Source of the DNA: a candidate division WOR-3 bacterium
GTDB lineage: Bacteria > Hydrothermota > Hydrothermia > Hydrothermales > JAJRUZ01
Assembly: GCA_039804025.1 (NCBI GenBank)
Contig: JBDRZP010000021.1
Span: 1-35,198, forward strand
Direction of reading: 5' to 3'
DNA length: 35,198 nt
Below, piece by piece: positions 20,730 to 26,055 of this stretch (position 1 is the stretch's first letter; every line of letters begins with the position of its first letter). The notes under the pieces are model-generated. The model searched no databases, was not told the DNA's origin, and saw only the letters and a list, made by a program, of their open reading frames with translations. The translations under genes and the position numbers were made by a program.

Positions 20730-21077
20730 TTAAAGTTCTCCTACTTTTTTCAAAAATTTTTCTAATTCACTTAAGGAAACCGGTTTTTCAATAAAATTGA
20801 AATTTTTTCCTTCTACCAGACTTCTGTTACCAGTTATAAAATAAGTCCTCTTTTCAAGTCCTGGAAAATTTTCTTTTATATAATCATAGATTTCAAGTCC
20901 ACTTATATCTGGCATTGTTATATCAAGTAAAATGAAATCAGGAGTTTTTTTCTTTAAAGAATTTTCAAAATCTTTAAAATTTCTGAAACTGTAAACCTTA
21001 AAATTTAATTTTTCAAGCATCTTTGATATTACAAAAGAAACCAATTCGTCATCATCAAGGTAAAAAACATTTTTCAT
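20730..21077 (-). CDS. Single-domain response regulator (CheY-like receiver)
   Basis: The 115-residue receiver domain has no output domain. All phosphorylation-site residues are in place: acidic pair D8/D9, phosphoacceptor D52 (FILLDITMPDISG), T82 (YFITG) and K98 (FIEKPVS). No histidine kinase is in the window. The closest signalling gene is the giant Ser/Thr kinase/sigma-54 activator upstream on the same strand, separated by a 16-codon ORF and a hairpin. A functional link is suggested by position only. A TAAAAT box 6 nt before the ATG predicts a leaderless transcript, so it may also be expressed independently. The start is the only ATG consistent with a complete beta-1 strand. Confidence 0.9.
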   Translation of the reverse strand: MKNVFYLDDDELVSFVISKMLEKLNFKVYSFRNFKDFENSLKKKTPDFILLDITMPDISGLEIYDYIKENFPGLEKRTYFITGNRSLVEGKNFNFIEKPVSLSELEKFLKKVGEL

Positions 21078-21140: not shown

Positions 21141-21177
21141 TAGAACACCCCCCTAATCTAAATTTGGGGGTGTTCTA
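21141..21177 (-). terminator. GC-rich hairpin, probable intrinsic terminator after the 16-codon ORF
   Basis: A perfect 12-bp stem (TAGAACACCCCC at 21141-21152 pairs with GGGGGTGTTCTA at 21166-21177) has a 13-nt loop. Read on the minus strand it starts 23 nt after the stop of the short ORF and is followed by TTTATTTACA, a moderate U tract. In the plus direction it is followed by AAATTTTTATT, so it may work both ways. Apart from the tRNA it is the only GC-rich stem I noticed in the window. Confidence 0.75.
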
Positions 21178-21200: not shown

Positions 21201-21251
21201 TTAGAAAGAAGGAGGAAGAGGATCTGGTGGGAGGATTGGTCCTTTTTTCAT
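21201..21251 (-). CDS. Candidate 16-residue proline-rich micropeptide
   Basis: ATG at 21251-21249 through TAA at 21203-21201 encodes MKKGPILPPDPLPPSF. I do not recognise the peptide. Evidence that it is translated: the sequence TAAGGAGGTT (21266-21257) is an almost perfect Shine-Dalgarno, 7 nt from the ATG. The ORF sits alone in a 277-bp gap. A 12-bp hairpin terminator follows it, and a candidate sigma-54 promoter precedes it. Six of 16 residues are proline, with a PPD triplet known to stall ribosomes lacking EF-P. It has no signal peptide or membrane segment. Possible roles are a signalling peptide for the TPR-containing regulator upstream, a regulatory leader peptide, or a small effector. 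It could also be the start of an untranslated RNA with a fortuitous SD. Confidence 0.55.
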   Translation of the reverse strand: MKKGPILPPDPLPPSF

Positions 21252-21256
21252 TTTAT

Positions 21257-21266
21257 AACCTCCTTA
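21257..21266 (-). promoter_or_regulatory. Strong ribosome binding site of the micropeptide ORF
   Basis: TAAGGAGGTT on the minus strand is complementary over nearly its whole length to the 16S rRNA anti-SD. The spacing to the ATG is optimal at 7 nt. It is among the strongest SDs in the window and contrasts with the SD-less starts of most operon-leading genes here. Confidence 0.7.
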
Positions 21267-21297
21267 TTTAAATATGGATTTGAACCAATTTTTAATT

Positions 21298-21313
21298 TGA
21301 AAAATTTGTTCCA
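21298..21313 (-). promoter_or_regulatory. Candidate -24/-12 (sigma-54) promoter for the micropeptide ORF
   Basis: The minus strand reads TGGAACAAATTTTTCA. Aligned to the RpoN consensus TGGCACN5TTGCA it has the right spacing, an intact TGG, and two mismatches (C to A in the -24 element, G to T in the -12 GC). Predicted +1 is near 21287, giving a 36-nt leader that carries the strong SD. The adjacent upstream gene encodes a GAFTGA-bearing sigma-54 activator. The -12 G is normally well conserved, so this is a candidate only. Confidence 0.4.
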
Positions 21314-21354: not shown

Positions 21355-24300
21355 TTAAATTTTTAGAATTTTGTAAGATTTGAGTTTCTGTATTAGATTT
21401 TGTCTTGATATTTTTAAAATTTTTGCTGCTTTTGATTTATTCCAGTTTGTTGATTTTAAAACTTCAATAATATAGTTCCTTTCCATTTCTTCAAGGGATA
21501 AAAATTTTTTCTCGGTTTTATATTTTCTAATCTCTTCTTTTAAATTTGAGGGGGTTATTATATTTTCTTCTTTCAAATTTAAAACAGCGCTTTCAAGAGT
21601 ATATTTTAACTCCCTTACATTACCAGGCCATTCGTAGTTATAAATACAATCCCATGCTTCCTTACTTAATTTTATTTTCCTTTTTATTTTTAATCTGTCT
21701 TTTATTTCTTCAAGAAAGTGGTTAACAAGATAAGGTAGATCATCTTTTCTTTCTCTTAAAGGTGAAATATAAAGGGAGTATCCTTTAAGTCTATAATAGA
21801 GGTCTTTTCTTATCTCTCCCCTTTCGACCTTTTCTTCAATTTCAGGAAGACTTGTTGCTATAACCATTACATCAATATCCTTTTCAACAGGGGAACCAAG
21901 GGGTCTTATCTTACCAGTATCAAGAAATCTGAGTAATTTATCCTGAAGGGAAAGGGGTATTGATTCAATATTTTCAAGAACAATTGTTCCACCATTTGCC
22001 TTTTCAATAAGTCCAATTTTATCTTCAAAGGCACCTGTAAAAGCTCCCCTTTTGTATCCAAAAAGTTCGCTTTCTGCTAGTGTTTCAGGAACTTCATTAA
22101 AGGAAAAGAAGATAATTGGCCTATTCTTTCTTATACTTATTTTGTGTATTGTTTCAGCAATTAAGGTTTTGCCTGTTCCTGTTTCTCCAATAAGAAGAAT
22201 GGGAATGGGTTTTTCAAGGTCTTTTATTTTCTCTATAAAATCATTTATCCTTTCTAAAAACTTTCTTGAACCAACTATTTCTCCAAGTTTTTCAATTTTT
22301 CTTATTTTTTCCTCAAGGGTAATTTTTTCTTCCTCAATTTTTTCAATAAACTTATTTCTAATATAGGATATTGAGAAAATTTCAGTTAAAATATTTAAAA
22401 TTTCAAAATCATCGGATGTAAATTCCCTTTTTGTTTTTGAATCAAGGTAAATGGCTCCAAGTAGTTTATCTTCATAGAAAAATGGAATACAGAATATTGA
22501 CCTTATCCTGTATTTTTGAACACTTTCTTTTGTTTTAAAACTATCGTCCATTAAAGTATCAGGAACATAAAAATGAATTCCCTTTTTAGTCGTATTAAGA
22601 ACAGAACTCAGTGATATATCAATTATATCCCTTCCTATGTCCTTTTTATAAAGTCCATAAGAAACTTTAATTTCAAGATGTTTATCCTCACCTTCACTTT
22701 TCATAAATATCATTCCCCTTTCCATTTCAGTTGCCTTAACAATGATTTCTATTGTTTTTTTCAAAAATTCTTCTTCCTTGTTATAGTTTAAGGAGTATAA
22801 AAGATAATTTCTAAAAATTTTCCACTTTTTGTCCTCAATTATTTTCCCAAAAGAAACATAAGAAAGTAATTCTTCTCTTATAAGTGAAAGTTCCTTTCTC
22901 AAAAATTCTTCTTCCTGTGTTTCATAAAGTTTTGTGATAAAGTTTTGAAGTTTGGGAATAAAACCCAGTTTTGTTATTTCACTTTTCTCAAAAACAATAA
23001 AAAAGAGTTTAAAAAATATTATAAAATCCTTTATAAATCTCTCATTATTTAAAAAATTTTTAGATTTTTTTAAAAATGTTTCAAGGTATTCAAAGGCTTC
23101 AATTTTTTTATTCTCCTTTATACTTTCTAAAAAATAAAATAAATTTTTAAAACAATCTGTATAATCTGAGGAAAATGTAATATTCTCATATTCTTTTTTA
23201 ATTTCTTTCAATTTTTCTTTATTTTTTATATTTAAAAGATATTCAAATAAAATTAAAACTTTTATTCTCTCAAAGTTTTCAGTTTTTCTCTCATATTCCA
23301 TAAGTTCTTTTTCTATTCTTTTAAATTCTTCTAAATTCCTATTAAGAGCCAGAAATAAAAGATATTCTTCCATAAATTTTTTTCTGTATAAAAAATTTGA
23401 AACTCTATTTAGGTTTTCCATCATCTTTTTTAAAAAAATATCAAATTTTTTATTTTCTGAAATTCTTAAATATTTTAAATATTCAACAAGTGTATCTATT
23501 AATTTTGTATAAATCCTATATTTTTCAGATAATTCAATAGCTCTCTCATAATACTGGGAAGGGTCTTCTTTTATAAGTCTCCTGTAATCAGCTTCCACAC
23601 TTAAAATATAAGGTTCAAAAATCGGAAGGTTTAAACTTTTATTAATTATATCTAACTTTTTTTTAATATTTGTGAGAAAGTTTAAATTTTTTTTATCTTT
23701 GTAATATCTAAATTTAATGAATTCAAAATAAAGTAAAATATAGGGGAAAATTCTCGCAGCCTTATAAAAGCTTTCAAATCTCTCCTGAATATACTGAATT
23801 GCTTTTTCTTTTTTACCTGTTAAATAAAGAAACTCAATGTAATAAAGTAAATAAAGGTAACTTCTGTAAGTCGGCCCCATTTTTTTTGAATAATAAAAGG
23901 CTCTTTTATAGGAAAGTTCTGCTTTTGTTGAATCCCCTTTCATTTCATAATAAGCTCCCTCAATTCTGTAATACATTGATATATTTGGAAAATCACGGGG
24001 ATCGTAAAAATTTCTTTTATATTTTTTTAAAACTTCTTCAAGTTCTTTAATTTTAAAAGTATTTATAAGTGCAAGACCTTTTAAAAGAAGGGATTCCTTG
24101 TCATCTTCATCTTTTAAAATTTCGTAACTCTTTTCAAAATCTCCTTTAATGTAACAGTAATAAGAATAAACTAATTTATAATCCTTTTCTGATATATCTT
24201 TTAAAAGATTTAAAACTTCCTCAAATTTTTTATCTCCTTCACCTATAAGAAAATAGGAGTAATATTTTAAGATTCTTGGAGGTATTCTTTTAAGTTCAAT

Positions 24301-26055
24301 ATCTTCTGACAGTCTTTTGAAAAATTCAAAAAGAATTTTTGGGTTTACTCTATAGAGATTCTCTAATTCTTCCTCTATCAGGTATAATTCAGAATAATCT
24401 TTATTTTTTAATTTTGCTAAAGTATAAATTAATTTTCCTTCAATGGAAAGTTCTTTAATATCTTTAAGATTTTTTAAAATTTTTTCATATGGGATATCCT
24501 TTTTAAGGTCAATAAGAGGAACTGAAAATTCTCCACTTCTCTCTATAAATCCCCTTTTTGTAATTTTTTCTATTGTTTCATATCCAAAAATTTTTTCAGT
24601 TTCCTCTATCTTTAGTTTTCCAAAAATATTAAGAGTGGATAAAAGATCTTCTTCCTCAGGACTTAAAAGTTTTTCTCCTTTAATTTTCCTTTCAATATCT
24701 TCTATATTCTTTGAAGATTTTAAAATTGAAAAGATATTTTTTAAATTACCTTTTTCTATTCTTATGATGTTTCTCAATAGTTCTGGTTTTTCAAAAGTTA
24801 AGGGGTTATTTTCAAGATAAATATATATTCTCTCCTCAGAAGGTTTTTTTAAAATTATCTCTTTTCCTTTTAAAATATGACTCCCTTCTTCTATCAATAT
24901 AATTAAGTTTTTAAATTCCTTTACTTCTTTTAAACTTTCAAGGAAATTTAGAAATTCCTTTTTATGGAATAATGGGTCTGTTATTACGAGAAGATACTTT
25001 TCTTTTTCTCTAATATTAAGAAGATGATATGTTATAAATGTATAAAGGTTTTCTTCTGGAAAAGAAAGATAGGGAATTTTTCCACCATCAATAAGTAAGG
25101 AATTTATTTCCTCTTTAATTTCTGAATAAATTTTTTTTAGGAAAAAGGTTTTTCCACTTCCTTTTTCCCCTTTTAAAAGAATAATTTCCCTTTCTTTATC
25201 CTTTATTTCCTTTAAAATTTCCTTTTTTATTTTTTCTCTGTCTTTTTCAATAAATTCAAGGTCAAATGTATAAAAAACTTTTTCATTGAATATATTTTCC
25301 ATAATCCAACTTGCAGACTTTCTTTTTTCAGGATCCCTATTTAGGGTTATATTTAAAAATTCCTTCCAGAACTCTTCTTTTACCTTATCTTTCCACCCTT
25401 CATCAAGAAACAAGCTTTTATATTCCCTGTAATTATCAATTTTTATTCCAGTAAGAATTTCAAAAGTTATTACACCAAGGGAAAAGACATCGGACTTATG
25501 GGTATTATTTTTACCTTCTAATACTTCAGGAGCAGAATAGAGTGGTGTCCCCCTTGAAAAGGATTTTTTTTTATGAGTGGCAAGCCCAAAATCAGAGAGA
25601 ACAGGATATTCAGATTCCTCTGATGGGAAAAGAATATTCTCGGGTTTTAAATCTGAATGAACAATAATATTTTTCTCAAGATAAGAAAGGGTATCAAGAA
25701 TATTTCTAACTAATTTTTTTAAATCCTTTATATTATTTTTCTCTATCCTTTCTCTTAAACTCCCTCCCTTTAAATATTCAAGAATAAGAACAGATTTATA
25801 ATCTGGATAAAATAAAAAATCATAAGTTTTAATAATACCGGAATGATTAAGGTTAAAAAGTAGATAAAATTCTTTATAAAGTTCTTTATGATTTGTATAG
25901 GGCACCTCTTTTATGACTAAATTTTTTCCTCCTGGTTCTTCACCAAGATAAACCTTTGTTTTTTCTGTTTCATATAAAACTTTAATCCTTTTTATTATTC
26001 CATCTATTTCATAACTCCATACTTTACTTTTTAAATTTTTAGAAAGTTTATTCAT
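21355..26055 (-). CDS. Giant Ser/Thr kinase - AAA ATPase - TPR - GAF - sigma-54 enhancer-binding regulator
   Basis: This 1566-residue cytoplasmic regulator has, in order, five parts. A eukaryotic-type kinase (about 18-255) has Lys49, HSDLKPEN at 133-140 (HRD changed to HSD), DFG at 155-157 and APE at 175-177. An STAND/AAA-like ATPase has Walker A GEKGSGKT (296-303) and VITD near 360. A long alpha-helical TPR-like region covers about 540-1080. A GAF domain covers about 1095-1235. A sigma-54 activator AAA+ domain (about 1260-1483) has GETGTGKT at 1290-1297, GAFTGA at 1337-1342, Arg1416 and WPGNVREL at 1476-1483, and a Fis-type HTH ends the protein. The AAA+ Walker B reads IVLENI instead of LFLDEI (E1361/N1362). 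The gene lies 21 bp after the fumarase subunit, has no SD, and is followed by the micropeptide ORF. It probably activates an RpoN promoter in response to ligand or phosphorylation signals; the target is not proven. Confidence 0.9.
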   Translation of the reverse strand: MNKLSKNLKSKVWSYEIDGIIKRIKVLYETEKTKVYLGEEPGGKNLVIKEVPYTNHKELYKEFYLLFNLNHSGIIKTYDFLFYPDYKSVLILEYLKGGSLRERIEKNNIKDLKKLVRNILDTLSYLEKNIIVHSDLKPENILFPSEESEYPVLSDFGLATHKKKSFSRGTPLYSAPEVLEGKNNTHKSDVFSLGVITFEILTGIKIDNYREYKSLFLDEGWKDKVKEEFWKEFLNITLNRDPEKRKSASWIMENIFNEKVFYTFDLEFIEKDREKIKKEILKEIKDKEREIILLKGEKGSGKTFFLKKIYSEIKEEINSLLIDGGKIPYLSFPEENLYTFITYHLLNIREKEKYLLVITDPLFHKKEFLNFLESLKEVKEFKNLIILIEEGSHILKGKEIILKKPSEERIYIYLENNPLTFEKPELLRNIIRIEKGNLKNIFSILKSSKNIEDIERKIKGEKLLSPEEEDLLSTLNIFGKLKIEETEKIFGYETIEKITKRGFIERSGEFSVPLIDLKKDIPYEKILKNLKDIKELSIEGKLIYTLAKLKNKDYSELYLIEEELENLYRVNPKILFEFFKRLSEDIELKRIPPRILKYYSYFLIGEGDKKFEEVLNLLKDISEKDYKLVYSYYCYIKGDFEKSYEILKDEDDKESLLLKGLALINTFKIKELEEVLKKYKRNFYDPRDFPNISMYYRIEGAYYEMKGDSTKAELSYKRAFYYSKKMGPTYRSYLYLLYYIEFLYLTGKKEKAIQYIQERFESFYKAARIFPYILLYFEFIKFRYYKDKKNLNFLTNIKKKLDIINKSLNLPIFEPYILSVEADYRRLIKEDPSQYYERAIELSEKYRIYTKLIDTLVEYLKYLRISENKKFDIFLKKMMENLNRVSNFLYRKKFMEEYLLFLALNRNLEEFKRIEKELMEYERKTENFERIKVLILFEYLLNIKNKEKLKEIKKEYENITFSSDYTDCFKNLFYFLESIKENKKIEAFEYLETFLKKSKNFLNNERFIKDFIIFFKLFFIVFEKSEITKLGFIPKLQNFITKLYETQEEEFLRKELSLIREELLSYVSFGKIIEDKKWKIFRNYLLYSLNYNKEEEFLKKTIEIIVKATEMERGMIFMKSEGEDKHLEIKVSYGLYKKDIGRDIIDISLSSVLNTTKKGIHFYVPDTLMDDSFKTKESVQKYRIRSIFCIPFFYEDKLLGAIYLDSKTKREFTSDDFEILNILTEIFSISYIRNKFIEKIEEEKITLEEKIRKIEKLGEIVGSRKFLERINDFIEKIKDLEKPIPILLIGETGTGKTLIAETIHKISIRKNRPIIFFSFNEVPETLAESELFGYKRGAFTGAFEDKIGLIEKANGGTIVLENIESIPLSLQDKLLRFLDTGKIRPLGSPVEKDIDVMVIATSLPEIEEKVERGEIRKDLYYRLKGYSLYISPLRERKDDLPYLVNHFLEEIKDRLKIKRKIKLSKEAWDCIYNYEWPGNVRELKYTLESAVLNLKEENIITPSNLKEEIRKYKTEKKFLSLEEMERNYIIEVLKSTNWNKSKAAKILKISRQNLIQKLKSYKILKI

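Follow-up and report, generated by a model that had tools for sequence, protein, structure and literature searches.

Peptide-based quorum sensing in which the peptide is read by an intracellular receptor is known mainly from Firmicutes and from their phages. To our knowledge there is no sigma-54 version of such sensing, none having been found in the literature searched, nor did that search find literature joining sigma-54, a kinase-type activator and a proline-rich peptide. The RRNPPA receptors, with RopB and its leaderless communication peptides closest in concept (PMC10518010), nevertheless offer a useful comparison. What is alike is a small open reading frame (ORF), led by a Shine–Dalgarno (SD) sequence, lying beside a large regulator, along with the occurrence of both signal-sequence and leaderless peptides within one family and of TPR in the regulators of relatives. 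The regulator of the window (i.e., of the whole 35,198-nucleotide stretch of DNA analysed here, from a candidate division WOR-3 bacterium) is, however, an activator of the sigma-54 AAA+ type that combines kinase, STAND-like, GAF and Fis-type HTH parts, and the peptides of its module are proline-rich rather than short and hydrophobic and are found outside of Firmicutes. The window activator, that is, given its content of kinase, GAF, sigma-54 AAA+ and HTH_8, is not an RRNPPA (Rgg/PlcR-type) member.

A different comparison is with sigma-54 promoters that lie next to the gene of an enhancer-binding protein. The window shares with these a TGG at -24, the spacing, RpoN and a GAFTGA activator, and relatives share near-consensus sites with upstream tandem palindromes as well, but the -12 element of the window has TC, no enhancer palindrome is visible there, and the target is a micropeptide. 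Similarly, the activator resembles PspF- and NtrC-type proteins in possessing Sigma54_activat, an AAA lid, HTH_8, GAFTGA and Walker A, but it differs in having ~1250 extra N-terminal residues and in its Walker B (residues around 1360), where DE is replaced by EN in the window and in the relative G003 and by DQ in G004. The promoter by itself is of a known kind, while the module of activator plus peptide appears to be undescribed in the literature searched. The reading that is favoured here, and with reasonable confidence, has the window site serving as sigma-54 promoter to a micropeptide gene that is transcribed alone and that the adjoining activator controls as a local target; the further step, more tentative, is that the peptide would then signal back. 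Coordinates are collected in Table 1.

Table 1. Features of the activator–micropeptide locus, in positions of the window
Feature	Position	Strand	Description
Activator gene	21355..26055	minus	1566 aa; from domain search; collinear with TPR-bearing relatives
Candidate sigma-54 type -24/-12 site	21298..21313	minus	TGGAACAAATTTTTCA; read directly, with shuffle test and relatives
Predicted transcription start (+1)	21287	minus	Placed from the sigma-54 layout with C15 (21299) as -12; 12 nt after the -12 base
11-mer	21276..21286	minus	GGTTCAAATCC; identical in the leaders of the window and G003, the predicted mRNA 5' end in both
Shine–Dalgarno	21258..21265	minus	AAGGAGGT; strong, kept in relatives
Micropeptide gene	21201..21251	minus	MKKGPILPPDPLPPSF; 16 aa, proline-rich, without signal sequence
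GC-rich hairpin 3' of the micropeptide gene	21141..21177	minus	-21.4 kcal/mol, z -4.2; terminator-like, with the T tract broken
Stand-alone response-regulator receiver gene	20730..21077	minus	115 aa; same position in G003

Read along the minus strand, the site consists of TGGAAC (21313–21308), AAATT (21307–21303) and TTTCA (21302–21298). Relative to TGGCACN5TTGCA it displays two mismatches (C4 to A and G14 to T); its TGG is unaltered and its spacing correct, exactly as the first-pass annotation had described it, and the span marked there, 21287–21313, is the site plus the spacer to +1. The start that had been predicted is reproduced on the sequence as well, as is a leader of 36 nt, running from that predicted +1 to the ATG at 21251 and holding the strong SD. 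The intergenic region in which the site is found is 103 bp, with the activator gene ending upstream at 21355, i.e., 41 bp before the site.

A site with two mismatches might simply be a chance match within AT-rich intergenic DNA. By mismatch count alone it indeed is weak and not above chance, with 620 sites of no more than two mismatches found over the whole genome (2.12 Mb) versus 138 for the reversed pattern. Scoring was done also with an approximate weight matrix over a 374-kb sample (340 kb of own-genome stretches plus the window), where 206 sites score at least as high as the window site, only eight of them intergenic and four no more than 250 bp ahead of a gene on the same strand. Ranked with such a matrix, as had been proposed, the site comes first in its own interval and is one of the few highest-scoring intergenic sites of the sample. 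As the best site in its own intergenic region it has p = 0.004 versus dinucleotide shuffles, and the peptide strand there scores 9.1 versus -3.6 for the opposite strand. The expectation that the site be better than random AT-rich DNA accordingly stands by shuffling of its own interval but not by mismatch count. With that p-value, the strand bias, a conserved position and recurrence across the family all speaking against it, a match by chance is very improbable.

The genome does encode rpoN (136.8 bits, an open frame of 460 aa, with TRREVCKLRKEM as its RpoN box region), which the proposal of a sigma-54 promoter had presupposed. The same genome uses TGGAAC before a pilin-like (prepilin-like) gene (TGGAACAGTTTTTGCT) and before an HdrC-like (heterodisulfide-reductase-like) gene (TGGAACAGAATTTGCA), both belonging to the L163:15895 / L063 sites, and also before a second micropeptide (TGGAACAAAATTTGCA), these three sites ranking among the best seen in that genome. 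As A at position 4 is normal for this genome, i.e., its native -24 box being TGGAAC, effectively only T14 deviates in the window. The second micropeptide, MEGLSKKTGAGGGPGLE..., is encoded elsewhere (L165:112-212, on contig C11, minus strand, after hypE), with a sigma-54 site that is better than that of the window, an SD and an upstream GTCTCAttGAGAC palindrome. Its counterparts are MKGLSKKTGAGGGPGLEGNYFSIPDQ in G002 and MGGLLKTGAGGGSSFIIF, located elsewhere and with TGGAATGAAAATTGCA, in G003; it is a member of a separate, Gly-rich sigma-54 micropeptide family.

Considering the two elements separately, the GG at -24 of a TGGCAC-like box is present in the window site, as TGGAAC. The GC at -12 of TTGCW is absent, the window having TTTCA, with C kept, G changed to T, and the spacing correct. 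At that -12 position 26 of the 27 good sites of the family set have G, and the window has T. Sigma-54 promoters of E. coli also are known to deviate from the -12 consensus (PMC12316311).

A close comparison is with G003, which is of the same family and which has an activator 46% identical to that of the window. Its gene order is as in the window: activator, site (TGGCATAATTTTTGAA), the 11-mer of Table 1, SD, peptide, terminator and receiver. As to the conservation of TGG and of the -12 element that the first-pass annotation would look for, TGG and the element layout indeed are common to both, but the -12 differs (TC in the window, GA in G003). An 11-mer as GC-rich as this was held in common by none of 2000 shuffle pairs. 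That 11-mer resembles a tRNA T-loop arm; fold analysis of the window leader hairpin gave no significant or stable structure. The G003 peptide is a prepropeptide, MKKLIALIALVGLIFAGVMHINVVKKASAKGIVVCDGVEPDSGPILPPPDPLG, and its C-terminal GPILPPPDPL approximates the whole of the window peptide after MKK, so that the window peptide looks like the same gene minus its signal-sequence segment. A DNA pattern for PPDPLPP also was looked for in 60 relatives, where all eight other matches were chance frames, and the peptide family consequently is traced by position rather than by sequence.

That the neighbouring gene encodes a GAFTGA enhancer-binding protein, as had been claimed from the translation, is borne out, with GAFTGA lying inside a sigma-54 AAA+ domain. 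N-terminally the activator has a protein kinase (41–254, with HxDLKPEN and DFG), a STAND-like ATPase (275–383) and a long helical/TPR-equivalent region, and C-terminally a GAF (1095–1229), the sigma-54 AAA+ domain (1265–1427), an AAA lid (1434–1516) and HTH_8 (1520–1561). Pfam TPR was not detected in the window activator, though four relatives (P0004, P0006, G111 and G089) do have it in the corresponding region, and profile comparison finds the window and G003 activators to be collinear with eight TPR-bearing relatives over 1506 columns (E 1e-130). The own genome has seven matches to the activator query, and the activator profile search found the activator itself in neither of the other two genomes of its genus.

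Most relatives keep the Walker B DE, as do the own genome's other activators. Changes at E108 of PspF nearly abolish ATP turnover (PMC3419264), yet PspF with E108Q remains able to remodel sigma-54 polymerase and does so best when the DNA is pre-opened (PMC4132715). Variants at -12 are found alongside the altered Walker B motifs, i.e., TC in the window, GA in G003 and TTTCA in G004. This alteration of -12 and Walker B together, in the window's lineage, suggests a slow-ATPase activator that is matched to an easier-to-open promoter. A slow ATPase and a loosened -12 may, that is, have arisen together, decay being the sober alternative. The window copy, from that different perspective, would be a decaying remnant with its sigma-54 module unused and its site either a degenerate fossil or read by another form of polymerase. 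The broken -12, the Walker B EN, the lack of a visible enhancer and the absence of the module from sister species all could be so viewed, and a window peptide that has lost the signal sequence seen in G003 likewise means that the locus could be decaying. The activator ORF is intact over 1566 aa, however, and retains Walker A, GAFTGA and HTH; neither the SD nor the micropeptide ORF is broken; TGG and the leader element are conserved with G003; and the promoter scan of the window found no sigma-70-like pair on the peptide strand before the micropeptide gene. Decay thus is unlikely, and it is quite probable that this particular site is in use.

It is upon comparison with relatives that the case for the site rests, and by that comparison the first-pass annotation very probably is right. 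The window switch, particularly, is probably real because distant relatives within the phylum have the same switch, the same activator neighbour and similar peptide genes. An activator profile search of 147 phylum genomes resulted in about 40 kinase-type loci for which the DNA downstream could be read. A proline-rich small ORF (SD-led, with at least five prolines in 16 residues) is found downstream of 28 of 40 kinase-type activators versus none of 27 ordinary ones (Fisher p 1e-9), though as these loci are related by descent the counts are not of independent events, and the motif count described below was done on a set thinned to 26. Families f3 and f9 have no detectable RpoN and no such activator. 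Scanned twice, the named genome collection yielded no family member, the best match, on a CSSED10-310 contig, being a kinase-type protein without a sigma-54 domain, and a search of the defence library resulted in domain-level matches only.

The peptides themselves take various forms. Many relatives have a signal sequence plus a short proline-rich tail, e.g., ...VDPRPPGVPRPPGVPRPPGIYGIGGGR (G146) and ...APKPPQPPPLPPDD (G087). Downstream of the G004 activator come a signal sequence and a run of AGPIKKPYPPLPPYATVQDSSGQDD repeats, downstream of the G013 activator comes MKVGTRNGIPIDMPGSPRPPWVADGIPIDMPGSPRPPW, and the G111 peptide has four DGIPHPPKPVPPTQ-type repeats; tandem core repeats are seen in G004, G013, G111, G115 and G146. 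Leaderless peptides of 16–21 aa, which are window-like, include MDGIVPILPPPRPAPPVK (G058), MFGVFVPPPPLPCPPK (G110), MDGYPIPPKPGPLPDPPSQG (G119) and MNDSFPILPQPGPIAPPLGI (G124), with short peptides lacking a signal sequence recurring in families f1, f8, f13 and f22.

Promoter motifs were scored in 32 intergenic regions, each taken from the activator stop to the SD-led ORF. A same-strand -24/-12 site with a shuffle p < 0.05 is present in 27 of these, the peptide strand outscores the opposite strand in 29, and for 24 of the 27 sites the start codon follows the -12 base at 26–60 nt. When gapped triplets are counted in the thinned set, without recourse to a matrix, TGG-N8-TTG is found 11 times versus 0.7 expected, TGG-N9-TGC 10 times versus 0.4, and GCA-N6-TTG 11 times versus 0.5. 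These triplets are among the most enriched and are the -24/-12 element. In close pairs of loci, the -24/-12 boxes and the peptide frame are conserved amid otherwise divergent intergenic DNA.

One relative, G013 (L081 / L075), departs from this pattern. Its activator has DAFPGA for GAFTGA and is missing the usual arginine-finger stretch, and before its peptide gene there is no -24/-12 site (score 0.3, p 0.93) but, by eye, a sigma-70-like TTGACA-N18-TAAAAT. The sigma-54 contact and the sigma-54 site thus seem to have been lost together, in an apparent switch away from sigma-54, and this joint loss supplies a natural comparison that makes the idea directly testable.

Upstream of the site, perfect palindromes with arms of at least nine are present in 10 of 31 regions (shuffles: mean 1, maximum 3), examples being AAGTGTAACAAAATGTTACACTT, in several copies, and AAGTGTGTCATTTTGACACACTT. 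In G145, G146 and G089 the degenerate palindrome occurs nowhere in the genome but at the module locus; in G045 and G090 most copies are at that locus. In the clusters examined that include a -24/-12 site, the distance from the start of the last palindrome to the start of the site is 107 bp in G045 and 82 bp in G089 and G090, a fixed spacing that includes second targets near a receiver gene and near a small gene that reads as LSm-like. With palindromes nearly confined to the locus, and at fixed spacing, the activator most simply would be a local regulator devoted to the peptide gene. The earlier supposition that such a protein may drive the gene next to its own finds support here, in the relatives' tandem and nearly locus-private palindromes with their fixed promoter distance. 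Enhancer palindromes could not be recognised in the window, in G000 or in G003; at the spacing of relatives, a window enhancer would fall inside the 3' coding end of the activator. A palindrome spanning the window promoter (21282–21311) was considered and rejected, i.e., is not claimed as an enhancer, because it is not kept in G003. G045 (L190, L191) has the palindrome-plus-TGACACGCTTTTTGCT cassette three times, with receiver genes following the second copy and a lipoprotein-like gene following the third, these three cassettes together being a predicted small local regulon.

What the relatives supply, by sequence, is a conserved module, a promoter motif and palindromes. A mechanism may be proposed in which RNA polymerase–sigma54 would be parked at the -24/-12 site, with some cue to the kinase, helical/TPR or GAF parts then causing the AAA+ ring to assemble. 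The GAFTGA loops would open the parked polymerase, giving rise to a monocistronic mRNA and from it the proline-rich peptide. In most relatives that peptide has an export signal sequence, often with single or repeated proline-rich cores behind it. The peptide most likely would finally be sensed in turn by this activator, as a feedback ‘signal’, making for a sigma-54 counterpart of receptor/micropeptide quorum-sensing pairs. This quorum-like reading is suggested by the tight activator–peptide coupling, by the near-private enhancers, and by signal-sequence and leaderless forms that resemble receptor–peptide systems. That the peptide is a signal which the activator reads is plausible, though we give it slightly less than an even chance.

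The main rival accepts the module as real but views the peptide as an effector instead, i.e., as a secreted structural, adhesive or antimicrobial product, with the activator answering some other cue via its kinase or GAF. Many cues could be readable by so giant a kinase/GAF sensor, and in some loci a large secreted protein replaces the small peptide (261 aa in G138, 392 aa in G044 and 775 aa in G051). Leaderless forms of 16–21 aa, as found in several families, hardly are structural exported proteins, however, and the palindromes, and hence the regulon, are nearly locus-confined, as would be expected of a self-contained circuit. An effector role accordingly is a serious contender, albeit one with appreciably less than even chances.

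Returning to the peptide as signal, a broader version may be offered only tentatively: a phylum-wide form of cell-to-cell signalling in which proline-rich peptides, secreted or leaderless, would be sensed by a kinase–TPR–GAF sigma-54 activator that induces its own peptide gene, the window representing a slow-ATPase, easier-promoter variant. What is at issue is a dedicated sigma-54 activator, with enhancers and a promoter, beside tiny proline-rich genes across an uncultivated phylum, genes which probably are overlooked by ordinary annotation and which provide one concrete candidate ligand–receptor pair per genome.

Downstream of the micropeptide gene, the hairpin of the window was not called in a terminator scan, and G003 has a clean terminator where the window has this hairpin with its broken T tract. 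The order of proline codons, strong hairpin and receiver gene would fit an ORF that is an attenuator leader peptide, its proline codons governing read-through into that gene. The peptides of relatives have signal sequences and repeats, however, the downstream genes vary by lineage, and the receiver gene is preceded by a sigma-70-like pair that ends 6 bp before its ATG and that probably is its own promoter, so that attenuation is quite improbable. The receiver gene is also the one gene for which the first-pass remark on leaderless first genes nearby was looked into. In families f18 and f30, the peptide gene is followed by one for a small protein, KMLDGTRYKGEIAYQDEKMVVL, that reads from its sequence as LSm/Hfq-fold-like (L195:1230-1433, with ORFs of 64–67 aa in L124, L128, L130 and L133), and in G089 this LSm/Hfq-like gene has palindromes of its own along with a near-perfect sigma-54 site, TGGCACAAATTTTGCT.
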